Shown: positions 1-29,021 of the stretch, piece after piece
How the letters are laid out: each line of letters starts with the position of its first letter
Numbering within the stretch: position 1 is the first letter of the stretch
Source: a virus
DNA: 30,028 nucleotides
IMG/VR virus record: IMGVR_UViG_3300025314_000073
Coordinates: 1 to 30,028 of that record
Strand: one strand, 5' to 3'
Notes under the pieces: generated by a model
The model's input: the letters and a program-made list of their open reading frames with translations, nothing else
Told to the model about the DNA's origin: nothing
Database searches by the model: none
Program-made: the position numbers and the translations under genes

Positions 1-1
1 C

Positions 2-181
2 TGGAATCCCGACTGGACGGACCCGCGCCGCGCACCCGGAGGCGACTGGCGGCTACAGCGGCGACTCAATGAGGGCTTCCGGGCGCTCGCTTGCGGGGAT
101 GATGAGGACCTGTCTGACCGGACCCCGGAGGATAAGATTGCCGGGGGATTGCTGCCTGCGGATTGGGGGGATGAGCCGTGA
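2..181 (+). CDS. C-terminal fragment of an unrecognised phage protein (5' end outside window)
   Basis: An open frame enters from the left edge and ends at TGA 179-181, giving 59 residues beginning [10 protein letters not shown] and ending [10 protein letters not shown]. It is rich in Trp, Arg and acidic residues, and no family is recognised. Its stop overlaps the GTG start of the next gene (GTGA at 178-181), the translational-coupling arrangement seen elsewhere in this window, so it is probably the last part of a real gene in the same operon. The start and most of the protein are missing. No function can be proposed. Confidence 0.5.
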
Positions 182-783
182 AGAGCCTCCGTGTTGAATT
201 GCGCTTCAAAAACGCCGTGCTCTGGCAGGCCCTGTGGGATCGCTTCGGGAAGACGGCAAAGCTACTGCACGAAGGGTGCCCTGGGATGGTATCACCGATC
301 CCGGTTGCCGCGCAAGTCATAGGCATCTCCGCTGGGACTTTGCGCGAGCTGCTTCGCATGAGTATCTCCTCTTACAGGATTGACAATGGGTACCCTACGC
401 CACGCGCTTCCCGTATCGCTGATTTTTTTGATATGCCAGTTGCGGAATTATTCCCACTTGAACTCTACTCGCAGCGCTGGCCGAAACTCTGCGCTTACCA
501 TGTCGATGCCGAGATGTTCTTGCCGCTCGAAGCGGCTCGGAATCTGACAGTGCCGCCGCCAGATGAACTGATTGATACCCAGTTGTGTATCGACAAAGCA
601 CTCCTTCGATTGTCCCCACGAGAGGAGAAAGTGATCCGCCAGCGCTTTGGTCTTGATGGTGAGGAGAAAACGCTTGAGGAACTCGGTCGTGATCTAAATG
701 TCACGCGCGAGCGTGTGCGGATGATCGAGGCGCGCGGATTAAGGCACTTGCGGAAACATAAGGCGCTTCTCGCTCTGAGGTGA
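178..783 (+). CDS. XRE-like HTH / sigma-70 region 4 fusion regulator
   Basis: This 201-residue protein very likely binds DNA and acts on transcription. Residues about 139-193 are a textbook sigma-70 region 4: [17 protein letters not shown], then [20 protein letters not shown], then LRHLRK, closely matching RpoD region 4.2, which reads the -35 element. Residues about 40-95 resemble an XRE/Cro-type helix-turn-helix ending in [14 protein letters not shown]. Sigma regions 1-3 are absent, so it cannot be a complete sigma factor. It may be a phage appropriator of RNA polymerase, a late-gene activator or an anti-sigma-like factor (inference). It starts at GTG 178, overlapping the upstream stop, and the next gene follows by 6 bp. 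It lies on the strand opposite the late operon. Confidence 0.85.
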
Positions 784-789
784 GAAAAC

Positions 790-1215
790 ATGACTGCCCT
801 GGAATCCCTCGCCGAGCGTTATCGCTTGAAGATCCGCCGCGACGAATGCGGCGATCCGATCATACCGGGACGCCGGGGCCTCCTGTACTTCGATGCCGGC
901 AGGCTATGCCTGATGATGCTGAATGCCCGGCCCGTGCAACCCCGGCGTTTACGGGAACTGGTAGGCGACGGGACTTTCTGGCAAGGCGACATCTCACGGA
1001 CCCCGGAGGGGCGCAGAGCGCAGGACATTCAGGCTTGGGGGGTGCCTCCAAAGGCCGCGATCAAGTTGGCAGGAGTCAAGCGTCGGCGGGTGCTGTCCGA
1101 GAGCCAGACGGCGGCCAATACCGCCCGCCTGGCGGCGTCCAGGCAGGCTGGTAGAATCGCCGGGGTCTCGTCTAGCGCGCAACGCCACGCGCTAGAAACG
1201 CACGGGGGCGCCTAA
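790..1215 (+). CDS. Conserved phage protein of unknown function
   Basis: A 141-residue basic protein starting at ATG 790, with a possible ribosome site in the GGTGAGAAAAC just upstream. The central stretch GTFWQGDISRTPEGRRAQDI followed by a VPPKAAIKLAGVKRRRVLS segment resembles a family of small conserved phage proteins usually found with lysogeny or regulatory genes, from memory of such sequences. No catalytic motif is visible. The C-terminal 45 residues are Ala/Arg/Ser-rich and probably disordered. It sits 6 bp after the sigma-region-4 gene and 3 bp before the HNH gene, so the three are most likely co-transcribed. Confidence 0.7.
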   Translation: MTALESLAERYRLKIRRDECGDPIIPGRRGLLYFDAGRLCLMMLNARPVQPRRLRELVGDGTFWQGDISRTPEGRRAQDIQAWGVPPKAAIKLAGVKRRRVLSESQTAANTARLAASRQAGRIAGVSSSAQRHALETHGGA

Positions 1216-1218
1216 GCT

Positions 1219-1575
1219 ATGCTCCAGCCTGTCTCAGGGTCAGGGAACGCGCCACAGGGCCGAAATGGGCGCACCACGACCGCCAAGGGCTATGTCCGGC
1301 TCAAGGCCGGCCCCTTCCGCGACCACTACGAGCATCGGATCATTATGTGGGTTTCATTACAAATCTACTGCCCTGAATGGCTGGTGCCTCGACTGAATGG
1401 CGACGGTCTCCCCTCGGGGTTTCACGTCCATCACATCGACGGCCGGCGGGCGCACAATTGCCCGCAGAACCTCATGCTGCTCGATGCAACGATCCACGAC
1501 TACCTGACGCTGGAGGGGATCAGGCGGCGACGGCTGGCGCGACAACTGGAGACCCTGAGATGCCTGACGAATTAA
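1219..1575 (+). CDS. HNH endonuclease, phage type
   Basis: A 118-residue protein with an HNH core: HVHHIDGRRAHNCPQNLMLL at residues 69-88 carries the paired His (71-72) and the Asn (80), with a further His at 93 in TIHDYLT. These residues normally bind the divalent metal and activate water for phosphodiester hydrolysis. The N-terminal part (GYVRLKAGPFRDHYEHRIIM) is the beta-hairpin/strand region typical of NUMOD-like or phage HNH nucleases. No Cys zinc ribbon is present, unlike the second HNH gene at 29251-29640. It could be a homing endonuclease or a nuclease assisting packaging. It is the last plus-strand gene before the convergent late operon. Confidence 0.85.
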   Translation: MLQPVSGSGNAPQGRNGRTTTAKGYVRLKAGPFRDHYEHRIIMWVSLQIYCPEWLVPRLNGDGLPSGFHVHHIDGRRAHNCPQNLMLLDATIHDYLTLEGIRRRRLARQLETLRCLTN

Positions 1576-13778: not shown

Positions 13779-14066
13779 TCATGTGAAGGAAGTTCCGTAA
13801 ACTGTAAACTCTCGATCCGGGGTTGTGACGATCAAGGCGCCGGCGGCTTCCCACCGATACAACCATGTGCCTGCCGTCGCCACGACAAAGAGCATGGTAT
13901 AGACGCCCGTGCTCTCCTTCGTCAGTTGACCCCCGGCGTAAGTATATGAGGTCTGCGAACCTCCGGGCGGGCGCACTTTCAAAGTGGTGGTCGTTGGATC
14001 GGTGAGCGCACCTGCGAGATTGCTGAAGGACGCGCGAAAACGAATCTCGGAACCAATGCTCAGCAC
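13779..14066 (-). CDS. Small Ig/BppU-like virion protein
   Basis: A 95-residue protein, starting at GTG 14066 inside the end of the preceding long gene (overlap GTGCTGA). The sequence 'FSNLAGALTDPTTTTLKVRP' followed by 'STGVYTMLFVVATAGTWLYR' has the strand-rich look of phage Ig-like or fibre-tip/baseplate modules seen in many metagenomic phages. Two W residues (WLYRW) and a closing REFTVYGTSF strand are typical. A decoration or tail-fibre role is inferred. It is translationally coupled to the 779-residue repeat protein. Confidence 0.6.
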   Translation of the reverse strand: MLSIGSEIRFRASFSNLAGALTDPTTTTLKVRPPGGSQTSYTYAGGQLTKESTGVYTMLFVVATAGTWLYRWEAAGALIVTTPDREFTVYGTSFT

Positions 14067-16399
14067 TTGATTATCTCCGAGACGACCTTCCCGGTCGGTT
14101 CCCAGGAATCTGTAATCGTGGCCGTCGCATAGATTTCATCGGTGATCTTGTTCGATTCGATAATAGCATAGATGCACCCTAGTGGCCCAGTCGCTAAAAC
14201 AGAAGGAAATTGACCATTCAGGATCAGCGTGCCTACAGGAACCTGAATGTTGGCGCCCCGACCAACAGTCGGGACATGACCGATCAGCGTCAGAAGTCCC
14301 GTATTGACCGGGATTGCAGTGGGCGCTATTACAGTTGGAACCTGGCCGCTGAGTGAAAGACTTCCTGCCTCGACCAGGATGCTTAGATGGAGTTGCGGGG
14401 TGAATCCATCGAACGACAGCAATCCGGCCGGGACAGCGACCGCGACCGGAATGAGGGGAACCTGCCCCGTGAGCGTCAGGCTGCCGGTATCCACGGGTAC
14501 GGCCAGATTCATTTGCGGGCTGAATCCTGTCAGGTCGAGCGAGCCGACAGGTATAGAGACCACGACTGGTTGTAGAATTGTTGGAACTTCTCCCGTCAGG
14601 GTGAGTTCACCGACCGGAATAGCGATTGTGAAGCTGACGCCGACTATTGGAATCTGCCCGGTAAGAGTCAGTTCCCCGGTCGCGATCGGCACTGTCAAAT
14701 TGACAGCGGGACCATAGCCCGTCAGGGTGAGTTCACCGGCGGGGACGGCGACCAGAAAGGTGATAACGGGCGTAGGATCGTGCCCGGTGAGGCTCAACGT
14801 CCCAGTGGCAGGTAAGATGCCGAAGTTCGCTTGGGGCGAATTGCCGGTGAGAGCTAACTCACCAACCGGAGGGATGACCACCACATTCGCGGCGGCAAGA
14901 ACCGTGGGGGCCTGCCCGTTGAGGGCCAACGCGCCCGCGTCGGGCAAGACACCTGTGGCGAGGACCGGAGCCTGGCCGTTTAGGGTCAACTCCCCGAGCG
15001 GGACGGGCACCGCGACCGGATTCAGGATGGTGGGCGCTTGGCCTGTCAGCGTCAGTTCACCAGCCGGGGGAGTGACGAATATGTTGTTTGCAGCTGTGAC
15101 AACAGGCGCTTGGCCCGTGAAAACCAAAGCGCCGACTGCGACGGGAACTGCGAGATTGACCTGCGGAGCCTGCCCGGAAAGAACCAACGCAGCCGCCGGG
15201 ACCGACACTGTCACTGGGGTAATGATCGTGGGCGCAAAACCCGTCAGCCCCAGCAAGCCAACGCCCACGGCGATAACTGTTCCAGCCGCCGCGGTAAAAA
15301 GCGCCTCTGCTATGACTCCACCGCAGCGCGGGTCAGGCGCAGCATCACTGGAAAAACCGAAGCGGAATAAGAGAGCATCAAAAGCTGCATCTGTCCAAGC
15401 TCCCCCCGAGGGTTTCGTAGGGTAGCCTTTGGTCCGAAATACGTCAGAAGTTTCAGAAGGATCGCCGGAGTACACGTCGGAATCAGTAGAGCCATCACGA
15501 ATCCGATACGTCGCATTGTTCGCGGTTGCCGTATCCGATCGTATCGCAAGAGAAACCTGCACATGCAGGGGCGCGGTGGTCTCGGCGGAATCGGCGAGTA
15601 CTACTTCAACGTAGTCGCCTGTCCCGATCGCACTCTGCGTCACATATTCAGTCTCGGCCGAGAGGGGCACAGCGTCCATCTGATCGTAAGCAGGATTGGA
15701 GCCGCTGATGGCGACGTTCCCGGCGTCCTCGAAATTCGCCGCATTCGAATGCGTGCCGTCCGCGCTCGGCTGATACCCGAGGACGTAGATATCGCCAATG
15801 GGATAGTCTCCAGCGGTAAAGCTGTACGCACAGTCATCAAGGAAGAAATCAACCGTGGTCGTTCCGGTCGCATGGCCAAATGAAATGGTTCCTATGTCAT
15901 CAGCAGCGGTAGCTAAAGTTGCCTGCGTTTCTGCCACCCCGTCGATACGCCAATCAAGAGTCCACGGGTCGGCGCTGGTATCCAGACGACACTCAACTCG
16001 GTACCATGTTCCAAGCGAAGGTCCGGAAGAACTTACTTGCGCTGTTCCTGAGCCTACTTGCGCGAACCATTTGTTCGTACCTGCTCGGATGCCAATTTTT
16101 ACCACAACGGCGCCCGACTGTACGACTAAGATAAAAGCATCGAAACTCGGGGGAAACGCAGCAAAATTAACGTGCACGACAGCTACGAGACGCCTGTTCC
16201 CAGCCGGGATATTGCGCGTGAGGCCCTGAAGAAACGCTGCTGGATTTATGCGAAGTGACGCTACGCCGGTGCGTTTTGTAGATGTGCTGATTGTCGGGCT
16301 GCCGGGAACACTATCCCACAACGCCTCGCCTGTCGCGTGGCTAGCGCCTAATGCGGCAACTTGGTGCTCAAAGCCAGTTCCAAATATCAGCGTTGGCAT
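14060..16399 (-). CDS. 779-residue LamG-like protein with 17 short repeats
   Basis: This is a probable virion surface or fibre protein. Residues about 1-210 look like a concanavalin/LamG-like beta-sandwich (for example SASADP-like 'RVECRLDTSADPWTLDWRID' and 'FFLDDCAYSF'). Residues about 376-731 carry 17 imperfect repeats of the type G-x-L-x-L-T/N-G-x-x-P (for example GELTLTGQAPTI, GSLTLTGQVPLI), spaced about 18-27 residues apart. The last 35 residues (ESNKITDEIYATATITDSWE and onward) form a distinct cap. ATG 16399 lacks a clear ribosome site. Tandem LTG repeats may form a beta-solenoid or array of small strands displayed on the capsid or tail. It shares operon position with small membrane and fibre-like genes. 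The exact function is unknown. Confidence 0.75.
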   Translation of the reverse strand: MPTLIFGTGFEHQVAALGASHATGEALWDSVPGSPTISTSTKRTGVASLRINPAAFLQGLTRNIPAGNRRLVAVVHVNFAAFPPSFDAFILVVQSGAVVVKIGIRAGTNKWFAQVGSGTAQVSSSGPSLGTWYRVECRLDTSADPWTLDWRIDGVAETQATLATAADDIGTISFGHATGTTTVDFFLDDCAYSFTAGDYPIGDIYVLGYQPSADGTHSNAANFEDAGNVAISGSNPAYDQMDAVPLSAETEYVTQSAIGTGDYVEVVLADSAETTAPLHVQVSLAIRSDTATANNATYRIRDGSTDSDVYSGDPSETSDVFRTKGYPTKPSGGAWTDAAFDALLFRFGFSSDAAPDPRCGGVIAEALFTAAAGTVIAVGVGLLGLTGFAPTIITPVTVSVPAAALVLSGQAPQVNLAVPVAVGALVFTGQAPVVTAANNIFVTPPAGELTLTGQAPTILNPVAVPVPLGELTLNGQAPVLATGVLPDAGALALNGQAPTVLAAANVVVIPPVGELALTGNSPQANFGILPATGTLSLTGHDPTPVITFLVAVPAGELTLTGYGPAVNLTVPIATGELTLTGQIPIVGVSFTIAIPVGELTLTGEVPTILQPVVVSIPVGSLDLTGFSPQMNLAVPVDTGSLTLTGQVPLIPVAVAVPAGLLSFDGFTPQLHLSILVEAGSLSLSGQVPTVIAPTAIPVNTGLLTLIGHVPTVGRGANIQVPVGTLILNGQFPSVLATGPLGCIYAIIESNKITDEIYATATITDSWEPTGKVVSEIIKC
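14205..15275 (-). repeat. 17 coding repeats of 'G-x-L-x-L-x-G-x-x-P' type
   Basis: At protein level each repeat carries a core such as GELTLTGQAPTI, GALALNGQAPTV or GLLTLIGHVPTV, preceded by a hydrophobic Val-rich linker (for example VAVPVPLGE). The DNA of neighbouring copies is similar but not identical, implying old expansion with drift. Some repeats vary in length, for example shorter spacing near GTLSLTGHDPTP. Such arrays can expand or contract by recombination. Confidence 0.75.
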
Positions 16400-17964: not shown

Positions 17965-18413
17965 AGGAGGACCTTTAGTGTGCTCGTCTCGTTCGCTGGG
18001 CGCAGCGTCACGTTCTCGGTTGAGGCGTTTCCCTGCAAGACAATTCCGGTGAGATCAATGGTAATACCCTGACCGCCAGCGGCAACCTGGAAGACTCCCA
18101 CGGTCGATCCGGCGCCGACATTACTCGCGGAGAACGCCTGTGCTGTGCTGCTGGCGCCTGTCAGCGGCACGATGGTCATGGCCGTAGTCGTGGCCGCTGT
18201 GCCGCGCAATTCAAGCGTTACGGTGGTGGCGACCGTGCTGTGAATCCATGCCGCTTGCGGGCGAATCACGCGGTTTGAAGTGGTTGGCTTCTGAAGGGTG
18301 ATCGCTTGGCTTGAAGGATTTGAGATAGCGATGTAGGCGGTAAAAGAGTCAGCGACTTCTTGCCCTTGCGCCAGAACCGCCAAAACAAGCAACCCCAGGA
18401 ATGTTTTCATCAT
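17943..18413 (-). CDS. Exported small protein with signal peptide (second)
   Basis: A 156-residue protein, using ATG 18413 (MMKTFLGLLVLAVLAQGQEV). The N-terminal Lys plus hydrophobic core followed by AQGQ is a classical signal peptide. Starts at 18440 (GTG, overlapping the end of TerL) or 18422 (ATG) are alternatives. The mature part is small-residue rich with 'ISNPSSQAITLQKPTTSN' and 'LELRGTAATTTAMTIVPLTG', compatible with an Ig-like or beta-sandwich fold. It is placed right after TerL and overlaps the next exported gene. The ribosome site is weak. Confidence 0.65.
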   Translation of the reverse strand: MMKTFLGLLVLAVLAQGQEVADSFTAYIAISNPSSQAITLQKPTTSNRVIRPQAAWIHSTVATTVTLELRGTAATTTAMTIVPLTGASSTAQAFSASNVGAGSTVGVFQVAAGGQGITIDLTGIVLQGNASTENVTLRPANETSTLKVLLWFNEQR

Positions 18414-18430
18414 GGTAAGCATACCACAGT

Positions 18431-19912
18431 TTACGACCACGGCCCTCCAGAAAAAGGAATGCGGCTAGCTTTTTGCGGGCGCGGCGGAGCGACCTTACGA
18501 GCAAACGTCAGCGCCAAGCCATCCGCATCGTCCGGGCTGCGCTCCCCGCGCTTGGTGAGGTCCTGCTTGGATTCGAGAACCAGCTTGTTTGATCGGTTCA
18601 GATGGTAGCCAGGCAGTCCGAGCTGGTAACTCAGTGGCTCCTCTTCAGGGATGGCGCCGATCAGCAGCCATTCCTTCATCGCATCCCACATATAGGCCCG
18701 CATGTTGGCTTGATGCTGGTTAGGAGAGTCGCCGCCAAAGTTGATTTCATGCACTTGCTGAAAGCCGAGCATGTGGAGGCGCTCGATGATCGGAGAACCA
18801 AAGGCGGAATCGATAAACATGGCCGTGATCTTATGCTCTGGCCTTTGATCGGATAGAAGTTCGGCGAGTCTGCCTACCAGCAAACCTCGATCATGTCGGA
18901 TGGCCTCGCCCGGTATCCGTATGCGCGGGATAGTGCGGGCATCCATGCCACGACGGAAGAACACAACATTCCATGCGGCGCCGCCGCCAGAGACATCGAC
19001 TCCGGCAATCAGAGGCTCTTCAGGAAGCACCCGGATCGGTCGGCGCATCGCTTGACGGATGCGTTGATGGTCGATGAACTGGAACTCAGACGCAAGAGGA
19101 GGCAACCCCAGGACGCGCACGCGGACCCAATCCGAGTCTTCGCCGTAATCATGCAGCCACTCCTCGATCAGTTGCTTATTCGTAAAGCGCGAACTGCGAC
19201 TGTCCAGAGTCCGGCGGTTCCAGCGCTCACTGTCTTTACCAAAGCAGATATTGTGGAACTCGCCGGTGTTACGCTCGGGCTGCCCCCAAGCGAAAAACAT
19301 CGGCTCGCCGTCGGTCAGTCCCCCATAGGCAACCTGCCAGATCGTATCGGGGACAGCGCTTGCCTCATCAAACATGTACCATGACGTGCTGGTACGGGCG
19401 TGCTGGCCGGCGAAGCTCTGAGCGTTTTCCTCTTTGCACGTCTGCGCCACGATCTTCCAGTCGTTCGGGCTGCTCTTCGCGTAGATACCCGAGGCCATGA
19501 CCTCAAACCAATGCGCAGTGATGGACAAGCGCACCCAGTACTGAATCGCCGACCAAGTACGTTCCTCAAGCTGCGTGGCCGTCCCAGCCGTAACCGTACC
19601 TGTCGAATAAGGCCGAGTGCTCAAAATCCAGCAAGCAATCCAGGCGCCCATCGCCGTTTTGCCGGTTCCATGTCCGCTCGAAGCCGCCATGCGAATAGGC
19701 CGAACAGGATTCACGCCGTCGAATTTTCGCAGCACAACTTCGTGCCCCAATGCCCGCAGAAACTCTCGCTGATTATCGTCCGGACCTGTCTCGCTCTTGA
19801 GCGGACCGGGCTCCCCCCAGGGGAAGGCCATCATGACGAAGCCCAGGGGGTCCTCATAGTAGCGCTGGACCAGATCGGCTAGATCGAGGTGCGGATTGGT
19901 GGCGGCGGCCAT
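18431..19912 (-). CDS. terL: Terminase large subunit (TerL), packaging ATPase/nuclease
   Basis: A 493-residue protein. The ATPase domain shows Walker A SGHGTGKT (residues 79-86) and Walker B SWYMFDEAS (177-185, with D182/E183). The RNase H-like nuclease domain supplies acidic residues at GVDVSGGG (D306), FIDSAFG (D368) and SPDDADG (D461/D462/D464). It would translocate DNA through the portal and cut at headful or cos ends. Its size is typical of headful-type TerL. ATG 19912 follows the end of the ejection gene, and signal-peptide genes follow. The TerS-like gene lies about 5.5 kb upstream rather than next to it, unlike P22 gp3-gp2. Confidence 0.92.
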   Translation of the reverse strand: MAAATNPHLDLADLVQRYYEDPLGFVMMAFPWGEPGPLKSETGPDDNQREFLRALGHEVVLRKFDGVNPVRPIRMAASSGHGTGKTAMGAWIACWILSTRPYSTGTVTAGTATQLEERTWSAIQYWVRLSITAHWFEVMASGIYAKSSPNDWKIVAQTCKEENAQSFAGQHARTSTSWYMFDEASAVPDTIWQVAYGGLTDGEPMFFAWGQPERNTGEFHNICFGKDSERWNRRTLDSRSSRFTNKQLIEEWLHDYGEDSDWVRVRVLGLPPLASEFQFIDHQRIRQAMRRPIRVLPEEPLIAGVDVSGGGAAWNVVFFRRGMDARTIPRIRIPGEAIRHDRGLLVGRLAELLSDQRPEHKITAMFIDSAFGSPIIERLHMLGFQQVHEINFGGDSPNQHQANMRAYMWDAMKEWLLIGAIPEEEPLSYQLGLPGYHLNRSNKLVLESKQDLTKRGERSPDDADGLALTFARKVAPPRPQKASRIPFSGGPWS

Positions 19913-19953: not shown

Positions 19954-22900
19954 TCATCGATGGCCTCGCTCGGGAATCCCCTGATCGCTTTCACCGAAAG
20001 CAGCGCGGTAAGCGGTTTCTGGGGTCATCGGCTTGCTCGTTTCTGGAAAAAGGCCAGGCCCTTCGATGGCGATCCGCCGAGCATGCTCAGCTTCTTCCAC
20101 GTACCGCCGAACTGCCGTGACAAGCTCGGAAGTGGGACGGTTCTGAAGCATTTTCGCAAGTTGCACCCCTTCTGCCGTCCATTGTTGTTGCGAGAATAAG
20201 CCAGATTGCTTGAGAAAGGCATCGAGGTCTTTCTGCCCATAGGACCGCGCCGCTTCGATCAAGTCTACGGCTTCCTGAATACGCGGCGTCAGGCTAAACT
20301 CTCCGGTTTCAGCACGAACCAAAGGCGCGGCCATACGTTCCAGTTTCCCTCGAATGGAAGGCGGGATGGTGTCAAGCTGCGCCGGATCGCGGAAGAAACG
20401 TCCAAGAATTAACTTTGAGATTCGTTCCTTTCCTGCTCTGGTCAACAGGTCCGCTTCAGCGAGCCCGGCACGTTCTTGTGGGGCAATGACGCCATCATCA
20501 ATCAGGCGGTTAAGAACTTCCCCGCCGCCCCTGCCCTCCAAGACCTGCGCCAGCGTTGCATCCGGGCCTTGCCGCTCAAGACGGCCAGCAACATCATCGA
20601 GTGTTGAAATCGGCACACGGCGGGAATCTGCGATGGCTTGTTCTGCGGGCCGAAGTGCAGCCGTTCCGGGTCGATTGAAAAGCGTCAGTGCATCCTGCTT
20701 GGAAGAAGGTGTCGTGAGTTCGGAATTATGGATGCGACGAAAAAGCCCAGGCTTTCTCATGCTGGCAACCGTATCAGGGTTCACCCCGAATTTGGGCGCT
20801 TCGTCTTGAAGCATCTGACGATAGGCCCGTGCACCTTCAGGATTTTGGGCGTAGACCCGATCAAGGATCATCTTGCGGCCGTTGCCGGCCAAAACATTGC
20901 CCGCACCATCAATCACGGTCGGCCCGTTGGTTGCGTCCGGGTTGTCGGTGATAAGCCAAGCCGGTTTGAACTTCTTCGGCAAAGCTCCGTTTAGAATCTT
21001 CGCCCGATTATCTGGCACCGAGTAATCACGGTCATTTTTCAGGTTGTACTTGGGGTTTTCAGCGAACGTCACGCCATTGTGCGAGGCCTGGATTTCGTCT
21101 AGTTCACGTACTTCGTAGGTAACGCGGTAGGTGATTTCGGAGCCTGGTACAAGGAGGGTCGCATCCTTGCCAGGTGCCTGGCTTGCGCCAAGCGGCTCAG
21201 AAATCGCCGTGCTCGCGCTTGCTTCGCGTACTCTTCCCGTTGCTGCTGTTTCTGGCGTTCCACTAGTTCTAACTATACCACGCTCCGCCGCAGCGGGCAA
21301 GTTCCCAAGGGTGCTTTCGACGTTCCTGGCTGCCATCAAAGCGCGCATTTCAGCCGGGATTCGCTTGATGGTCCTGGGTGCCGGCACCGGGATGCCGATC
21401 CGCTCAGCCATCGCCTTCCAATAGTCCGGCGTAATGCGCGCCACATCATCCGGCGAAATATTGCCATCGACAAGCATCTCGGCCAAGCTTTTTCTCGTGA
21501 TCCTGGCAACCTGCTTGTGATACTCGGCCTTCGGCTCCGCCAGTGGATCTCTGAGTGGCTTTGGGCCTGGCGGAGGCTCAGTTCGGACCGCTTCACCGAA
21601 AGCAGATCGCATTTGCGCAACGTCGCCCAATGATTCACCCGTGTAGAAAATCGTCGGTTCGCCCGTTATCGGATTGACTCCCATCTGTGGGCGAGGGTGA
21701 GAAACGACCATTGAGGATTTAGGGCTTGGCGGCTCAGTGAGCAGTATCCGTGGCGGCGCCGCCAATTGACGCGAGGGCGGCAAGGGTTCCACAAGTTCGG
21801 CGATAGAGAGCGCGGGAGGAGCAGCGGCTTCGCCAGTTGGAGCTTTAGCTGGCGCTTGCTCTATTGGAGAAGCCGCTGGTCTGGCCGGCGGGATCGTGGA
21901 TTCTGCCACAGGAGATTTGATCCGCTCAGCCAGATTTCTGACGCCCTGTTGCTGTTCAGGCGTGAGCTTTGCGAACGGTTTGCCGGCCTGCGCTACAGAG
22001 ATTTTTTCTAGCAAAAGTGAAGCGCCGCTCTCTGCCTCAGCCATCGCGATTCTCTGATAATCGGATAGACTGGTTTCGGCGGCGACTTGCTCCTGGGTTT
22101 TCTCAAGCATGGCATCAATACGTTCGCGGGTTTTCACGCGCTCTACGTCGGCTTGAGTAGCACGAGTGTATTCTGCTTCCTGGGCAGCTTGAACTTCGGC
22201 AGCTTGCTTGGCGCTTGCTTTGGCTGCTACTTCTCTATCCCGCAATCTGGATATATCTGATTCTGTGGCTCCAGAAATCTCCGCTTGTCTGCGAGCATCG
22301 GCGGCAGCTTCGGCTCGCGCTTGAGCCTTCGCCGCCTGTTTTGCTTGAGCCTCTCTAATTTGCAAACGCTCCCAGTCAAGGAGGCTTGCTTCTTTTATGG
22401 CAGACTCTTGTATGGGAGAAATTTCTTCCGTCTTCGCCATCTCTGCGGCCTTCTTCTGAATCGCTTCCTTGGCTCTCCTTACGGCAGCGTGTGCGATCGG
22501 GGCCGGCACACCGATCTTTCTCAAGGCCCAGGCCGCCGCGACCTCCGGCGCAGCCATTGCTATGCGCTTTCCACCTGCCACCCCGCGCTCAATGCTCGCT
22601 GCTGCTGCTTTTGGTCGAATCGGACCGCCAGCTCCGGCAGCTACCATGGGACCGCCAAATCCGTAGGCTGTGCCCAATGCGCCGGCCACATCTCCCCTGT
22701 TGACTTGCTCAGCAGCTTGCTCTAGGGCTTGCGCCGCTCCGATAGGGATGAAGTTCAGGAACGACGCATAGCCCTTGATGATACCGGTCTTGTAATCGCC
22801 GCGTTTGAATGCCGCCGCAGCCTCTTGCGTCATGCGGTCGGTTTCAGTTCCAGGCAGGCCAAGCGCTTCGGCCGGCGCCCTTTTCAACTCCGTCAAGAAA

Positions 22901-23139
22901 CTCTTGGCTGTTTCAAACGGGCTCGCGGCGAGCTCCGCGAGCAGTTTTGTGGGATGACGCGCCCAGACCGACGATACAAAACCCTTCGGACTTTTGGGCG
23001 CCGCTGCGGTTTCTTCCTCGGCGGTATTAACTTTCCTTTTGCCGCCATACTGCTGCGCAAGGGCATCATAATCGATCTTTCGACCGCCCCCGAATTGGCG
23101 GGCCAGAGCCTCATAATCAGGTTGAGCAGCGCTGGCCAT
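19954..23139 (-). CDS. Large polyvalent ejection protein with DdrB/ParB-like domain
   Basis: A 1061-residue protein. The N-terminal repeats (PDYEALARQFGGGR, IDYDALAQQYGGKR) are typical of phage internal-virion or polyvalent proteins. Long Ala/Glu/Lys helices follow at residues about 230-400, then Pro-rich linkers. Residues about 665-810 carry a DdrB/ParB-like domain, recognised from VTYEVRELDEIQASHNGVTF, NPKYNLKNDRDYSVPDNRAK, NGPTVIDGAGNVLAGNGRKM and an 'IHNSELTTPSSKQ' end. Such domains occur in phage P1 DdrB and polyvalent proteins that are injected to counter host defences or handle DNA. The C-terminus after 'GESDQGIP' differs in reading frame (see findings). It starts by TAATG overlap. Confidence 0.8.
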   Translation of the reverse strand: MASAAQPDYEALARQFGGGRKIDYDALAQQYGGKRKVNTAEEETAAAPKSPKGFVSSVWARHPTKLLAELAASPFETAKSFLTELKRAPAEALGLPGTETDRMTQEAAAAFKRGDYKTGIIKGYASFLNFIPIGAAQALEQAAEQVNRGDVAGALGTAYGFGGPMVAAGAGGPIRPKAAAASIERGVAGGKRIAMAAPEVAAAWALRKIGVPAPIAHAAVRRAKEAIQKKAAEMAKTEEISPIQESAIKEASLLDWERLQIREAQAKQAAKAQARAEAAADARRQAEISGATESDISRLRDREVAAKASAKQAAEVQAAQEAEYTRATQADVERVKTRERIDAMLEKTQEQVAAETSLSDYQRIAMAEAESGASLLLEKISVAQAGKPFAKLTPEQQQGVRNLAERIKSPVAESTIPPARPAASPIEQAPAKAPTGEAAAPPALSIAELVEPLPPSRQLAAPPRILLTEPPSPKSSMVVSHPRPQMGVNPITGEPTIFYTGESLGDVAQMRSAFGEAVRTEPPPGPKPLRDPLAEPKAEYHKQVARITRKSLAEMLVDGNISPDDVARITPDYWKAMAERIGIPVPAPRTIKRIPAEMRALMAARNVESTLGNLPAAAERGIVRTSGTPETAATGRVREASASTAISEPLGASQAPGKDATLLVPGSEITYRVTYEVRELDEIQASHNGVTFAENPKYNLKNDRDYSVPDNRAKILNGALPKKFKPAWLITDNPDATNGPTVIDGAGNVLAGNGRKMILDRVYAQNPEGARAYRQMLQDEAPKFGVNPDTVASMRKPGLFRRIHNSELTTPSSKQDALTLFNRPGTAALRPAEQAIADSRRVPISTLDDVAGRLERQGPDATLAQVLEGRGGGEVLNRLIDDGVIAPQERAGLAEADLLTRAGKERISKLILGRFFRDPAQLDTIPPSIRGKLERMAAPLVRAETGEFSLTPRIQEAVDLIEAARSYGQKDLDAFLKQSGLFSQQQWTAEGVQLAKMLQNRPTSELVTAVRRYVEEAEHARRIAIEGPGLFPETSKPMTPETAYRAAFGESDQGIPERGHR

Positions 23140-24530: not shown

Positions 24531-25345
24531 TACACGTTCAATGGTTGCCGCCGCCGTAACCCGCGAATCGCCTCAATCAAGTCAGGGAGACTATTGAGGC
24601 CGCCAGCAACAGCCTGACGGGTTCCCACATTGCCTCCCAAGATGCCGGAGGCTTCTGCCTCCCCGATCCCGAGAGTGATAGGCGCCGCTGACCGGGCCGC
24701 TCCCGTGGTTACGTCGGCAATGCTCTCAGCCGTCCGCAATCCGACATCTCCAGCGTAGCGCCCTGCCCCTATGGTGTTCGCTCCGAATACCTCAGTCGCC
24801 CGCTGGCCGCGCCCGGCGAGGATGTCGTTGATATCTACGTTAGCGCCAAACGTCTTTAGCGCTCGCTGAAATGCCTGGTCGTAGTACGTACTGGCAAGCC
24901 CCTGCCCGAACTCCGTAAGCCCCTGGAGAACGTTCCCGCTCGATGCCAACCCGCGCGCAGCGGCGCTGTTCGCAATCGCCTGCGTTCCCTTGTTTAACTG
25001 GAACTGAAACGCAGGGTCGTTGGCATAGTCCTCATAGTTGAACTTGAAGCCAGCCCGAGCCAAGTCCGCCAAGGAAGTGATCCCCTGCTCGCCGGCCGTT
25101 CGGTACGGCTGCAAGCCCAAGTTGGCTGCTTCTGTGGCCTCGTATACCGCCTGGGGTGCATTCCGGCCGGCCTCAGCGAGTCCGGTACCCGCAGTCTCGG
25201 CAGCTCGGTAGATATCTCCCTTAGCGACCTCGCCGGCATTGGCAAGACTTGTAGCGGCACGTTTGGACGCGCCGCGACGAGATAAACCACTGAATATGCT
25301 GCCTACCGCAGGGATCGCCGCAGCAATCAATTGAGGCCATGGCAT
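24530..25345 (-). CDS. Phage DNA transfer/ejection protein (P22 gp7-like position)
   Basis: A 271-residue protein. It opens with a hydrophobic Ala/Gly stretch (MPWPQLIAAAIPAVGSIFSG) likely to insert in membrane. It then carries 'NDPAFQFQLNKGTQAIANSA' then 'AARGLASSGNVLQGLTEFGQ', a signature widespread in phage DNA-transfer or tail-length-associated proteins (from memory). The rest is helical and Gly-rich. It would be one of the proteins ejected into the host envelope before DNA. It is the first structural gene after the TerS-like gene, 32 bp downstream of its stop. Confidence 0.75.
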   Translation of the reverse strand: MPWPQLIAAAIPAVGSIFSGLSRRGASKRAATSLANAGEVAKGDIYRAAETAGTGLAEAGRNAPQAVYEATEAANLGLQPYRTAGEQGITSLADLARAGFKFNYEDYANDPAFQFQLNKGTQAIANSAAARGLASSGNVLQGLTEFGQGLASTYYDQAFQRALKTFGANVDINDILAGRGQRATEVFGANTIGAGRYAGDVGLRTAESIADVTTGAARSAAPITLGIGEAEASGILGGNVGTRQAVAGGLNSLPDLIEAIRGLRRRQPLNV

Positions 25346-25377
25346 GGCCCCACTATTGCACAGAGACGAAACAAAGT

Positions 25378-25749
25378 CTAGGGGGAATGTTCGGAGCTTC
25401 CATCCAGTTTTTGGAGCCGTTCGCGCGCCGCCTGAAGGCGTTGGACAATCTCAACCTCGATTGCGCCCCCGTCGCGCCCGGTGTGCTCCACGAGTTGCTT
25501 AACGCTCAGTCCAGCCCGATCCAACACAGCGATTACAGCAGCAACACGTACACTGGCTGGCGTCTTTTTGTTTCTCGCAATTTCTACCAGGGCGCCGGCG
25601 AGTAGATCGGCCGCTTGAAGTAACCGCTGCTGCGCTTTCGCTTTGACTTGCGGCGCGGAGCCTCCGTGAACGCGGCAAACATTACTACCCTTAATCGCTC
25701 GACCTCGGCATGGATCGCCGTTGCTGCTGCGGTGGGCAGAACAGATCAT
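25378..25749 (-). CDS. TerS-like zinc-containing protein, first gene of the late operon
   Basis: A 123-residue protein. The N-terminal MICSAHRSSNGDPCRGRAIK followed by GSNVCRVHGGSAPQVKAKAQ has Cys/His ligands (C3, H6, C14, C25, H28) ahead of 'HGG.APQV'. The C-terminal half is helical with 'TPASVRVAAVIAVLDRAGLS'. This combination is common in phages close to terminase genes and is sometimes annotated as small terminase or hypothetical (from memory). The location at the head of the late operon supports TerS. The weakness is the 5.5 kb separation from TerL. The ribosome site is weak. Confidence 0.55.
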   Translation of the reverse strand: MICSAHRSSNGDPCRGRAIKGSNVCRVHGGSAPQVKAKAQQRLLQAADLLAGALVEIARNKKTPASVRVAAVIAVLDRAGLSVKQLVEHTGRDGGAIEVEIVQRLQAARERLQKLDGSSEHSP

Positions 25750-25771
25750 AGGTCACAATGCCCTATGGGTC

Positions 25772-25777
25772 ATTATA
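25772..25777 (-). promoter_or_regulatory. Candidate late promoter -10 (TATAAT)
   Basis: On the minus strand the sequence TGGTGTATAATGACC lies 23 bases before ATG 25749. TATAAT is a perfect -10, and the start of transcription would be near 25765. No good -35 hexamer is seen at 16-18 bp, since that region is the end of a palindrome arm, so an activator or a modified RNA polymerase may be needed. The sigma-region-4 protein at 178-783 is a candidate. Its TGGTGTATA is repeated at 10903-10911. Confidence 0.45.
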
Positions 25778-25790
25778 CACCACAATCGCC

Positions 25791-25885
25791 CGTCCTACCC
25801 TCCGGCTCAGGCCAGCGCCGGGAGGCCCCGTCTGACCCGAACACGGGGCATAGTGCGGCGGCTTAGGAGGCCGGAGGGCAGGACG
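25791..25885. repeat. 95-bp imperfect palindrome with branched fold
   Basis: The outer arms 25791-25806 and 25870-25885 are inverted copies of each other with one mismatch in 16 bp (CGTCCT-A-CCCTCCGGC against GCCGGAGGG-C-AGGACG). Inside, GCCCCGT (25825-25831) pairs with ACGGGGC (25843-25849), and CGCCG (25816-25820) can pair with CGGCG (25856-25860). The whole element separates the early operon (ends 25891) from the late promoter. It may be a terminator, a cis-acting RNA or a packaging/cutting site next to the TerS-like gene. No tRNA signatures are present. Confidence 0.6.
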
Positions 25886-25890
25886 CGGGA

Positions 25891-26172
25891 CTAGTGCGGT
25901 AGCAAATCAGGCGCTAACAGGCGCACCAGATTGCGGGCTTCCTGTATTTCATAGCATGTGCACTCACCGTCACCGCCAGTGATATCGCACGGCTCACAGT
26001 GGCCAGATGCGATCATTAACGTGTAGTTCCAGCAGCCGGTACAGACATACTGCCCATCGGCTGTTACCAATTGTGAATTCTCTAAGTTTCTTAGTCCTGC
26101 CATGTACCGAGCACCGCATTTGCAAGCTCTAATGTCGGTGTCACAAGCCAAGTAAAGTCCTACTGTGTCCAT
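25891..26172 (-). CDS. Cys-rich small zinc protein
   Basis: A 93-residue protein starting MDTVGLYLACDTDIRACKCG. Cys pairs occur at CKC, CTGC, CEPC and CTC, so one or two Zn sites are likely. The C-terminal ARNLVRLLAPDLLPH is a short helix. It is the last gene of the early-type operon, followed by the palindrome. Such proteins are often DNA- or RNA-polymerase-binding, but no family is recognised. Confidence 0.6.
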   Translation of the reverse strand: MDTVGLYLACDTDIRACKCGARYMAGLRNLENSQLVTADGQYVCTGCWNYTLMIASGHCEPCDITGGDGECTCYEIQEARNLVRLLAPDLLPH

Positions 26173-26212
26173 AATCGGGGGTTCTCCTATACCCCGTCCT
26201 AGGCATCCGCTC

Positions 26213-26482
26213 TTAACCGGGGATGACTAGGGCGCGGGATAGGGTGTTTACCTCGCTGACCTCCCGTAAGAGCCGACAAGCGCGGTCCTCCGGGGTGTCC
26301 TTAGTCAGTTGCAGATACCGTCGCGTTGCCCGGTTTTTGTAGTGGTGAACGCCCGGCGGGTCTTCGTGCATCCACATGTAGTCTACACAACGTCTGAGCG
26401 GGAGACCCGCCAGCACAACCGCCCGCTCAAGTGGCGACCAGTCGGGCGAGGTAAAGTTGAACGGTCTGTAAGGGGTAGTCAC
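26213..26482 (-). CDS. Small early phage protein
   Basis: An 89-residue protein starting at GTG 26482, which overlaps the TGA of the upstream gene (GTGA). The sequence contains 'WSPLERAVVLAGLPLRRCVD' and 'RYLQLTKDTPEDRACRLLRE', rich in Leu/Arg and helical. No known family is recognised. Its operon overlaps indicate a real gene with coupled translation. Confidence 0.6.
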   Translation of the reverse strand: MTTPYRPFNFTSPDWSPLERAVVLAGLPLRRCVDYMWMHEDPPGVHHYKNRATRRYLQLTKDTPEDRACRLLREVSEVNTLSRALVIPG

Positions 26483-26682
26483 GATTGCACCTCCACGTGG
26501 CCGAGCAACGCCAGGTCACGGCGCGCGGCGCGAATATGTTGCGCCGCCAACTTTGCCTTGTAGGGTTTGGCGGTGGCAACGATGGTTTCCTGCTCGCGGA
26601 TTTTTTCGGTCAAGCGCGCGGCGAATACGGCGGGAGTCAGACCGCAGCGCCAAATGAGATGCTCAAGTTCGCGGCGCGTCAC
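26479..26682 (-). CDS. Small helical early protein
   Basis: A 67-residue protein starting at GTG 26682 within the overlap GTGA. It is mostly helical and basic, with 'RRELEHLIWRCGLTPAVFAA' then 'RLTEKIREQETIVATAK'. It could be a small regulator or DNA-binding factor. No helix-turn-helix is clearly delimited. It shares the operon with neighbours through 4-bp overlaps on both sides. Confidence 0.55.
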   Translation of the reverse strand: MTRRELEHLIWRCGLTPAVFAARLTEKIREQETIVATAKPYKAKLAAQHIRAARRDLALLGHVEVQS

Positions 26683-26954
26683 GCGGCGCCCCCTACGGCC
26701 TTCGTACCTTCGGCTTGATGTTCCAGTTCCCGGATGGCTAGGTTAATGATGGTTTGGAAATTGGAGATGTCCGTGGATCGGCAATAAGCTGGCGCCTGGG
26801 ACATCATCCGAAGTACGTACAAAGTGGAAAGATAGCCTACACGTGCTGCTTGCATCTCTCTCTTTGTTCGGCCACTCCAATGCCCTGGGAAATTGGCCGT
26901 AAGCCGTTCGAGTAACCCCGAACGGAATCCTGTTACTTCCTGTGTTTCACTCAT
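26679..26954 (-). CDS. Small early phage protein, unknown
   Basis: A 91-residue protein starting at ATG 26954 with a nearby AAGGAG ribosome site (26967-26972). Its leader repeats the sequence found upstream of the ArdC-like gene (see repeat entries). It contains 'WSGRTKREMQAARVGYLSTL' and 'ISNFQTIINLAIRELEHQAE', suggesting helices. No family is recognised. Confidence 0.6.
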   Translation of the reverse strand: MSETQEVTGFRSGLLERLTANFPGHWSGRTKREMQAARVGYLSTLYVLRMMSQAPAYCRSTDISNFQTIINLAIRELEHQAEGTKAVGGAA

Positions 26955-26979
26955 GGCTCAAGCGCTCCTTAATCGCTCT
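26952..26979 (-). repeat. Leader/ribosome-site repeat, copy 1
   Basis: On the minus strand AGCGATTAAGGAGCGCTTGA then G precedes the ATG at 26954. The same leader, with one A fewer, lies before the ArdC-like gene. It contains the ribosome site (AAGGAG) and the palindrome AGCGCT. Shared leaders may give equal translation control or be a duplicated gene start. Confidence 0.55.
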
Positions 26980-27011
26980 GTCACTCCCACGGCCCGCTGA
27001 AATCAGTGGGC
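26979..27011. repeat. Hairpin-bearing repeat, copy 1
   Basis: The 20-mer TGTCACTCCCACGGCCCGCT (26979-26998) recurs exactly at 27224-27243. Its last nine bases start a stem: GCCCGCTGA pairs with TCAGTGGGC (26992-27011) with one G-T wobble. This copy overlaps the 3' end of a gene, so it was tolerated in coding sequence. It could modulate mRNA stability or translation coupling. Confidence 0.6.
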
Positions 27012-27211
27012 GTGCGTAATTCCTGACGTTGGGTAACCATGCGGATTTGCCGCGCATAAGCGGCGCGGTCCCGTAAGTATTGGCGGGCATCGTAGAGCAG
27101 GTCAGAAGCGGGAAATTCCGCTCGACCCTCACCACTGACTTGCAGATAGGCGGTGTGCAGGATCACGATGGCGTCGTGGTCTGCGGTGTTGTCCATCTCA
27201 TGTGTGCTCAT
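26981..27211 (-). CDS. Small acidic early protein ending SGPWE
   Basis: A 76-residue protein starting MSTHEMDNTADHDAIVILHT (ATG 27211), with a GGAGG ribosome site. A longer start at 27235 has no such site. The helical 'ASDLLYDARQYLRDRAAYAR' segment and the end 'TDFSGPWE' are its features. The DNA encoding the last five residues is part of a 20-bp direct repeat with a hairpin, also found upstream at 27224-27256. Function is unknown. Confidence 0.6.
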   Translation of the reverse strand: MSTHEMDNTADHDAIVILHTAYLQVSGEGRAEFPASDLLYDARQYLRDRAAYARQIRMVTQRQELRTPTDFSGPWE

Positions 27212-27223
27212 GCGGCCTCCTCT

Positions 27224-27256
27224 TGTCACTCCCACGGCCCGCTCAGTGAGTGGGCC
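27224..27256. repeat. Hairpin-bearing repeat, copy 2
   Basis: The same 20-mer is followed by GCTCAGTGAGTGGGCC, forming a near-perfect palindrome GGCCCGCTCAGTGAGTGGGC and C (27236-27256). This copy is intergenic, between the 27272 gene and the 27211 start, close to the ribosome site. The hairpin could occlude or expose it, depending on upstream translation. Confidence 0.6.
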
Positions 27257-27271
27257 GCTGGCGGGATAGGT

Positions 27272-27607
27272 TTAGTCCGTGTGCAGCCTGTCTGGTAGCC
27301 TTCGCAAGATCAACTGATACCACTCTGCGCAATCGCCCCGTCGTACAATCAGACGCGGCGTGTTGATGGCCTGCGCCAGGAGCCGCAGATGGTTGTAGGT
27401 GTCGCCGCTGGCCTTCTTAGGGTAGCGCCCGGCCACCGGCATGGCCGATCCACGCGAATGGCTTGGGTCGTCTGGCCACCCCGCTCGCCGGTTGATTGCC
27501 TGCTCGACCAGCCAAGCTGGGTCACTGGTGTAGCTCACGGAGTAGCCAGCCGTTCGGGTGTCCTGGCAGCGCCGGAGGTAAGCGATGGTGCGGGCAGTTG
27601 GGGTCAT
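27272..27607 (-). CDS. Conserved early phage protein
   Basis: A 111-residue protein (ATG 27607 overlaps the upstream TGA as ATGA). The pattern DPAWLVEQAINRRAGWPDDP, then 'GRYPKKASGDTYNHLRLLAQ' and a final 'NTPRLIVRRGDCAEW' is shared with a conserved family in phages of proteobacteria (from memory; function unknown). A longer upstream start (27790) is rejected because the added sequence is the antisense-like frame across the ArdC-like gene. Translation is coupled to the ArdC-like protein. Confidence 0.7.
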   Translation of the reverse strand: MTPTARTIAYLRRCQDTRTAGYSVSYTSDPAWLVEQAINRRAGWPDDPSHSRGSAMPVAGRYPKKASGDTYNHLRLLAQAINTPRLIVRRGDCAEWYQLILRRLPDRLHTD

Positions 27608-27942
27608 GCGGCACCCCCGATCGGATCGGTCTGCGAAAGGTGAAACACGGTGGTAGTCCACGGCCGCGACGCCGTCCGCTCCACTTCCTGCCCGGTGGCT
27701 TCGTCGCGCTCCTTGCGCGTGGTTTTGATAATAGTGGCTACCTTGACGCCGTGCTCGCCCTTGCGCACCTGGCGCCCGAGTGCGCGCCATGCGTCGTAAG
27801 TGAATACATTTACTCGTGGGTTGATTTCAGCCTCGGGAATCCCCTTGGCTATGAATCCCGTGAAAATCGCGGGATAGTTCCCTACACTCCGGCCGTTTAC
27901 CGCATGGCTCAGAGCTTCCTGCTGAATTGCTTGGCTACTCAT
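27604..27942 (-). CDS. ArdC-N-like antirestriction/ssDNA-binding domain protein
   Basis: A 112-residue protein matching the ArdC N-terminal-type domain: NVFTYDAWRALGRQVRKGEH then GVKVATIIKT, ending in WTTTVFHLSQTDP. In ArdC this domain binds ssDNA and protects incoming plasmid DNA from restriction; the C-terminal protease domain is absent, so it is a single-domain version. It is the first gene after the strong promoter at 27975-28003, fitting expression early after DNA entry. A leader repeat precedes it. Confidence 0.75.
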   Translation of the reverse strand: MSSQAIQQEALSHAVNGRSVGNYPAIFTGFIAKGIPEAEINPRVNVFTYDAWRALGRQVRKGEHGVKVATIIKTTRKERDEATGQEVERTASRPWTTTVFHLSQTDPIGGAA

Positions 27943-27966
27943 AGCCTCAAGCGCTCCTAATCGCTT
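27940..27966 (-). repeat. Leader/ribosome-site repeat, copy 2
   Basis: AGCGATTAGGAGCGCTTGAG precedes the ATG at 27942, matching copy 1 except for one deleted A. Transcription from the 27975-28003 promoter would start next to it, making it the 5' end of the early mRNA. Confidence 0.55.
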
Positions 27967-27974
27967 GCAGTGTT

Positions 27975-28003
27975 ACTATACCGCAAGGGGAATAGAATGT
28001 CAA
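27975..28003 (-). promoter_or_regulatory. Near-consensus sigma-70 promoter
   Basis: On the minus strand TTGACA (28003-27998) and TATAGT (27980-27975) are separated by exactly 17 bp, one mismatch from the full consensus. Transcription would begin near 27968 and run into the ArdC-like operon. This is the best host-type promoter in the window, and it marks the operon as early. Confidence 0.8.
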
Positions 28004-28274
28004 GAGAAATCTTCGTCTAAGCGCAAGAATGTGTCTAGTAGTACTGCGAGACCAGGCATACCGTGAGTCATGGTACTAGGGCGCGCAGACTGGTGGAAGC
28101 AGAGAAGCAGAGGTCCCGCAGGAAAGTCTTGCAATCTCTAAACTACAGGCGTAGTGTAGGTAGGGTCCTGGTAGTTTTGGCCCTGCACAAGGCGGTCTGT
28201 AGTACGCGCGCGCCGTGGGTCTGGGCGATAGCCGCAAGCGGAGATTCCTAAAATGCTCCGGGGTAAGGTGGGGT
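28004..28274. other. Region without a clear gene
   Basis: No frame here shows convincing coding character. It holds short palindromic pieces (AGTACT near 28040; GCGCGCGC near 28206-28213) and may contain upstream regulatory DNA for the promoter at its left end. A tiny minus-strand ORF (28000-28071, 23 codons) has no ribosome site. Confidence 0.4.
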
Positions 28275-28533
28275 CTATACGGCGATCATCCCGGTCGCAC
28301 GGGCCAGCGGCGGGATTCGCCGCATGGCCATCTGGCAGTAGGGCCAGGAGAGGTCGAGGCCGACGAAGCGCCGGCCAAGGTTGAAGGCGACGAGGCCGGT
28401 GGTGCCAGAGCCGGCGAAGGGGTCGAGGACGAGGGCAGGGGTTGGCGGGCCAGCATTGCAGGCGCAGGTCGGCCGCCAGCCAATTGTAAAAGTAGGCTTG
28501 CATACAGAATCCTGTTTCTTGTGCGTTTCTCAT
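28275..28533 (-). pseudogene. C-terminal fragment of a beta-class DNA methyltransferase, frame broken
   Basis: The frame ending in TAG 28275-28277 encodes IGWRPTCACN, then PALVLDPFAGSGTTGLVAFN and LGRRFVGLDLSWPYCQMAM. DPFAGSGTT is the AdoMet-binding motif I, and in beta-class (CcrM-type) enzymes it lies at the C-terminal end after the catalytic DPPY motif. No DPPY region is seen. This frame opens after stop codons at 28530-28535 and has no start. The ATG at 28533 reads a different frame, MRNAQETGFCMQAYFYNW, and would join it if one T of TTTT near 28490 were absent. So it is either a remnant or a sequencing/assembly indel. Confidence 0.65.
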
Positions 28534-28623
28534 CAGGGGAGGGTCGGGCCTTGGTGCCTTTCCCCTTCCGCAATCTTGATGCCGCAGGCTTCATTGTGGC
28601 ACGTGGAACATTCGGGTTGTCAT
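28533..28623 (-). pseudogene. Zn-finger-like mini-protein with apparent +1 frameshift
   Basis: An ATG at 28623 opens MTTR, while the next frame reads ECSTCHNEACGIKIAEGERH then QGPTLP and ends at TGA 28533-28535. If one C of ACCCG were removed the result is a 29-residue protein with a C-x2-C-x4-C cluster. The stop overlaps the next ATG (TGATG). The match is suggestive, but the short length makes chance possible. Confidence 0.35.
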
Positions 28624-28626
28624 TTG

Positions 28627-28779
28627 TTACCCGTCAACCTTCCAGAACTTCCTCCAGGTCTCCATGTCCTTGACGTACCACTCCCACATCTTGGCCTTCA
28701 GCTCCGGGGGCTGGCCCTTGACGATCTCGGTAACCATCTCGGCCAGCGCCTTTACTGCTAGGGCAACGGCTTCAACCAT
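28627..28779 (-). CDS. Small helical phage protein (50 residues)
   Basis: ATG 28779 has a GGGGAGG ribosome site 4 bases upstream. The product MVEAVALAVKALAEMVTEIV, KGQPPELKAKMWEWYVKDME, TWRKFWKVDG is amphipathic with Trp-rich C-terminus, and resembles small conserved phage proteins (from memory). It overlaps the previous gene by 8 bp. The longer start at 28824 is rejected for lack of a ribosome site. Confidence 0.7.
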   Translation of the reverse strand: MVEAVALAVKALAEMVTEIVKGQPPELKAKMWEWYVKDMETWRKFWKVDG

Positions 28780-28978
28780 GTAGCCTCCCCATTCGTTCCA
28801 GCCCCGTCTTCTCGATGGTAACATTCCCCGGACGACCCGCCGGCGGCGGTACGTGGAACTGCACCGCGCTCAGGATTCGCTTGTGGCAGTCCGGGCAGTA
28901 CTGCCAATCGCGCCCGTCAGGTCGGCGGCGGGGGAACTGGAGATGGGGATGGCGGCAGCGGAAGGGCCAGAAGGTCAT
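28772..28978 (-). CDS. Small zinc-binding protein
   Basis: A 68-residue protein starting MTFWPFRCRHPHLQFPRRRP. Cys and His at C8/H10 and CPDC (C28, C31) followed by HKRI form a plausible Zn knuckle. It is Arg-rich and likely nucleic-acid binding. Its ATG overlaps the TGA of a 16-codon ORF (28975-29025) that begins just after the upstream gene's stop; that ORF may serve only to couple translation. Function unknown. Confidence 0.65.
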   Translation of the reverse strand: MTFWPFRCRHPHLQFPRRRPDGRDWQYCPDCHKRILSAVQFHVPPPAGRPGNVTIEKTGLERMGRLHG

Positions 28979-29021
28979 GCTGTCTCCATTATCCGCCGCT
29001 CCGTCTGCACTGCTGCACGTT

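Follow-up and report, generated by a model that had tools for sequence, protein, structure and literature searches.

What the large palindrome between two consecutive minus-strand genes does for its virus is the question that this locus raises, the window being the whole 30,028-base virus record that was analysed. A sequence-only reading had described a branched element of about 95 bp at the boundary of an early and a late operon, beside a TATAAT-type late promoter and a TerS-like gene, and had offered a terminator, a structured RNA, an operator or a packaging site as its possible identities. We asked how large the element is, how it would fold, where else it occurs and which genes it accompanies, and we weigh the possible identities where the evidence bears on them.

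Extent and predicted fold of the palindrome

The two arms that had been proposed, of 16 bp each with one mismatch, are present as described, given that positions 25791-25806 and 25870-25885 are complementary at 15 of 16 positions, and the 30-kb window contains no other inverted repeat of at least 15/16 with a spacer of at most 110. As a control for chance, the window was resampled 20 times at first order (dinucleotide frequency), and this gave one inverted repeat of such quality in total, or about 0.05 expected per 30 kb; the palindrome at 25784-25893 is real and not a product of chance. The arms lengthen to 21 nt (25786-25806/25870-25890, 18/21 complementary), and the comparison with a second virus, described below, sets the limits of the full unit at 110 bp, from 25784 to 25893, with the minus strand as its sense strand and with the upstream gene's stop codon, TAG, as its first three bases. 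The unit thus reaches past the span of about 95 bp first given.

The predicted fold is one rod of 38 pairs with internal loops. At its base, the 5' arm of helix 1 (25867-25892, minus strand) is predicted to pair with the 3' arm (25784-25808) through 24 pairs with bulges, 16 of them uninterrupted; helix 2 would join 25855-25862 to 25811-25818 through 7 pairs with an internal bulge; and helix 3, within 25825-25849, is the inner 7-bp stem already claimed from the letters, exact as GCCCCGT/ACGGGGC at 25825-25831/25843-25849, with an 11-nt loop in which one base is T or C between the two viruses. Because this fold is a single rod, a model with zero branch points, the description of the element as branched was wrong.

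The expectation that the element could fold on either strand was borne out, with RNA folds far under those of shuffled sequences on both (z of -4.9 on the minus strand and -3.5 on the plus strand), the sense strand of the window element folding better than the antisense. After G+C correction, minus-strand positions 25781-25890 are the top-ranked 110-nt segment for structure on that strand, and the element ranks among the most structured segments in both viral genomes. G-C-rich DNA palindromes score well as RNA folds too, and the DNA single-strand fold of the element is likewise significant. No tRNA or tmRNA was found in the window with ARAGORN, and Rfam gave no gathering-level match for the window and none at E values up to 5 for either copy of the element.

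The element in a second virus

Scanning IMG/VR with one arm as the pattern recovered the window virus from three further samples, with no difference along the aligned lengths, and a single other virus with both arms, IMG/VR 3300002485_000002, here called G001, of 61,697 bases (61.7 kb) with a 73-base end repeat. Its copy, at 47712-47820 (locus L024, 507-615), is identical to that of the window at 106 of 110 aligned positions (96%), the copies differing by two substitutions and by a short stretch that includes a one-base indel. Homology has two abrupt edges: it starts with the stop codon that closes the upstream gene, which is TAG in the window but TAA in G001, and it stops at GATT, where the stem finishes; the flanks are unrelated on both sides, and the non-coding neighbour DNA cannot be aligned. 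Each virus has a stop codon, the hairpin, 34-35 nt and a start codon, all on the same strand, and the two copies agree in sense with respect to their flanking genes. Since a second virus, in other respects quite unlike the first, has it almost unaltered, the 110-bp element is, on this comparison of two genomes, a preserved unit.

All 38 pairs are kept in both copies, which is the conservation of pairing in relatives that had been looked for, though the two sequences compared (n = 2) are too alike to show covariation. The sole in-pair change, from A-U to G-U, retains pairing only in the sense RNA and is weak evidence for RNA function. Among the options of the sequence-only reading, that of a structured intergenic RNA gains strength from this nearly identical 110-bp element in the same intercistronic position of a second virus.

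At the DNA level, the two viruses share part of the early module and none of the structural genes: window positions 1-1565 and patches of 26255-28987 match G001 at 28483-30059 and at 43.0-47.2 kb, with 82-100% identity. The whole element differs by about 4%, compared with 26-41% at the four-fold sites of three genes (178-1575) that the viruses have in common at the window's left end, and the nearest shared gene, at 26213-26482, has a four-fold-site difference of 32.5%. Nevertheless, three of the four early patches compared in the region of 28.1-29.0 kb differ by only 0-11% at four-fold sites, and because some early patches are so much closer, recent exchange of a segment stays an alternative to strong selection. 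That the palindrome has no function and is shared through common descent only, having arisen by chance, is very improbable in our estimation: the viruses are indeed related in their early region, with nearly identical stretches there (55/55 at 28511-28565), but so few palindromes of this quality are expected in 30 kb, and all 110 bp can be aligned while the adjacent non-coding DNA cannot.

The sharp edges and high identity could equally well come from the recent transfer of a DNA element. We therefore considered a small palindromic DNA, mobile or passively exchanged (MITE-like or a host repeat), which inserted behind a stop codon and has no phage function, and we judge this unlikely, though deserving of real weight. 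The homology edges coincide with the ends of the terminal inverted repeats (TAATC...GATTA in G001), the flanks are unrelated on both sides and identity exceeds that of the neighbouring genes, and REP/BIME palindromes and MITEs are likewise intergenic imperfect palindromes of about 100 bp with terminal inverted repeats. Unlike these, the element has one copy per genome, in the window virus and in G001, and no transposase, empty site or empty-site relative was found. The paired-arm pattern gave five matches, all of them chance, across 84,980 species genomes of bacteria and archaea (GTDB), and whole-genome blastn found no copy in 388 and 386 genomes (about 770) of two arbitrarily chosen phyla, a search of little power; these negatives on bacterial repeats rest on exact patterns. 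Blastn against annotated phages and plasmids gave nothing above noise. Furthermore, both copies have the same orientation and the same position behind an early gene, and no clear or consistent target-site duplication is seen by eye in the two copies.

Other viral searches extended the family no further: beyond the same virus and G001, arm patterns in IMG/VR gave only single-arm or chance matches, a covariance model built from the two copies found nothing else in 0.5 Mb of loci, and relatives sought through four neighbouring genes were the same virus, G001, or the distant viruses G005 and G006, which are without the element. Two further candidates were rejected. A reading frame beginning MPRARVRRG is open in G001 and interrupted by a stop in the window (by eye), and because the one-base indel changes the frame between the viruses, the element is not protein-coding across its length; an integron attC-like cassette was set aside given that no second copy lies behind other genes.

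As a separate observation, G001 has a second large palindrome in its early region, at 39490-39581 (L103, about 2490-2582), with arms complementary at 15/16, a fold of about -68 kcal/mol per 110 nt and a position directly before a Shine-Dalgarno sequence and ATG; it has no sequence likeness to the window element and no plasmid or phage match.

Neighbouring genes and the end of the early arm

The upstream gene, at 25891-26172 on the minus strand according to the ORF list, encodes a small cysteine-rich protein of 93 aa, which has no PHROG or Pfam match and no counterpart in G001, where a different gene, of 97 aa, holds the corresponding position. The downstream gene, at 25378-25749 on the minus strand, encodes a 123-aa 'HGG' cysteine protein and starts 34 nt past the element, while its G001 equivalent in position is an unrelated gene of 141 aa that starts 35 nt past it. 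The TerS-like label given to 25378-25749 could not be established, as it matches just hypothetical proteins from Microbacterium phages and a PHROG without an assigned function. As for the TATAAT-type late promoter, the hexamer does exist on the minus strand, at 25777-25772 and just beyond the element, but it has no acceptable -35 at normal spacing and is unlisted by the promoter scan. A short inverted repeat, CATAGGTCA/TGCCCTATG, spans the start codon of gene 25378-25749 (window 25747-25767) and might serve as an operator or as a hairpin that blocks translation. The window also encodes, at 178-783 on the plus strand, a sigma-factor-like protein common to G001 (PHROG 351, E 4e-15), and given this protein, the phage may have promoters of its own.

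The TATAAT box is absent in G001, and neither it nor the TerS-like gene is conserved with the element there. The arm that bears the element, which we call early because of the order of its genes and their small size, is co-directional with the structural genes in the window but opposed to them in G001. Because the early region is partly shared, and because the structural genes are not shared and have the opposite orientation, the element is linked, as far as these two genomes tell, to the end of one early arm rather than to the TATAAT hexamer or the gene labelled TerS-like.

At such an arm end, a DNA site for a phage protein might also lie, in the form of a module recombination joint, a replication terminus or a packaging site, and to this reading we assign a small probability. 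The G001 copy is close to where convergent transcription meets and to the maximum of the cumulative GC skew, the element is the last shared feature on that side of the early module, and its DNA single strands fold well too. Nonetheless, the window copy is not at a convergent junction, and homology breaks on the early side as well, so the element is not simply a crossover edge. The large terminase gene of the window (18431-19912) is 6 kb from the element, and a weak TerL match in G001 (18001-19239) is about 30 kb from it, the terminase genes of G001 thus not being adjacent. Neither the TATAAT box nor the TerS-like gene goes with the element in G001, where the structural genes are reversed, and this weakens two of the identities proposed at the outset, a packaging site and an operator tied to the late promoter and TerS.

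A transcription terminator between early and late transcription, possibly one lacking a U-tract, is slightly more doubtful still. Intrinsic terminators, including the proposed U-tract-less hairpins, are likewise stable hairpins just past a stop codon, and the element follows an early gene with a very stable predicted hairpin. Unlike compact terminators, however, it has a long stem interrupted by internal loops and an 11-nt top loop, and in both viruses a same-strand gene lies downstream, beginning only 35 nt later in G001. No T-run follows the stem on either strand in either virus, where the bases after it are GTGGTG (window) and AGGAGC (G001), and the terminator scan of window positions 25300-26300 and L024 1-1500 found none. 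Because there is no U-tract, the element is not a canonical intrinsic terminator, and in that form the original terminator option has no support.

A candidate intercistronic RNA hairpin

We prefer, with a probability of about 0.45, the reading in which the element would be an intercistronic RNA hairpin of the early transcript, likely of an RNase III-type processing or mRNA-stabilising kind. An RNA element is favoured because of the stop-hairpin-start order in two viruses, the bias of folding towards the sense strand and the retained pairing. The hairpin, whose sense strand is that of the early genes, would be transcribed with them, as gene order suggests, and would then be cut by RNase III-type double-strand cleavage or kept as a 3' block against exonucleases; the cut or block would set the mRNA end and the stability of the upstream early gene, which would thereby be uncoupled from the downstream gene. 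Such an element would travel and persist with the early module, independently of the adjacent structural-gene module.

RNase III processing sites have about 20 or more bp of double-stranded RNA, usually interrupted, and RNase III cuts long interrupted helices of this kind in phage early messages, as at the T7 R sites and lambda sib. Helix 1, predicted with its 24 pairs in both viruses, reaches that length (~20+ bp), and it is this helix length alone that suggests RNase III cutting. The T7 and lambda hairpins resemble the element in being long interrupted hairpins between co-directional early genes and in having an outer helix of more than 20 pairs, while the rod of the element, at 110 nt, exceeds the T7 sites in both length and G-C content. 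A literature search on hairpins cut by RNase III in phage early transcripts, and on hairpins at module boundaries, found nothing that bears directly on the element.

Most probably, the element is an ordinary and known kind of intercistronic hairpin with a new sequence. It might instead be a self-contained non-coding cassette, acting as a regulatory RNA or as a site that a protein binds, which different phages exchange and place exactly behind the stop codons of early genes and which has an undescribed function in trans or in module exchange. We hold this to be a rather remote prospect; a true exchanged cassette would add a non-coding class to the modular evolution of phages. The element is a non-coding unit kept better than most of the surrounding genes in a highly mosaic early region, and because of this better preservation it is a good candidate for a functional phage RNA, and would offer a handle on early-transcript processing in uncultured phages.

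Several minor features of the two genomes were also recorded. A short repeat occurs in both early regions (window 26979-27011 and 27224-27255; G001 46401-46448, L103), arranged as GCCCACTG...CAGCGGGC, which forms a small hairpin, followed by CGTGGGAGTGACAGGAGG, that is, right before a Shine-Dalgarno sequence. On the minus strand of the window, 14060-16399 encodes a protein of 779 aa in which near-repeats of a VPVGELTLTGQAPTI-like motif are numerous, and 19954-23139 encodes a protein of 1061 aa that has a ddrB-like domain of the ParB superfamily (Pfam PF18763, E 4e-13) and sits among presumed ejection proteins. In G001, an in-gene 54-bp tandem repeat at 32835-33145 (L105) gives a repeated AASGDRSSA in the protein.
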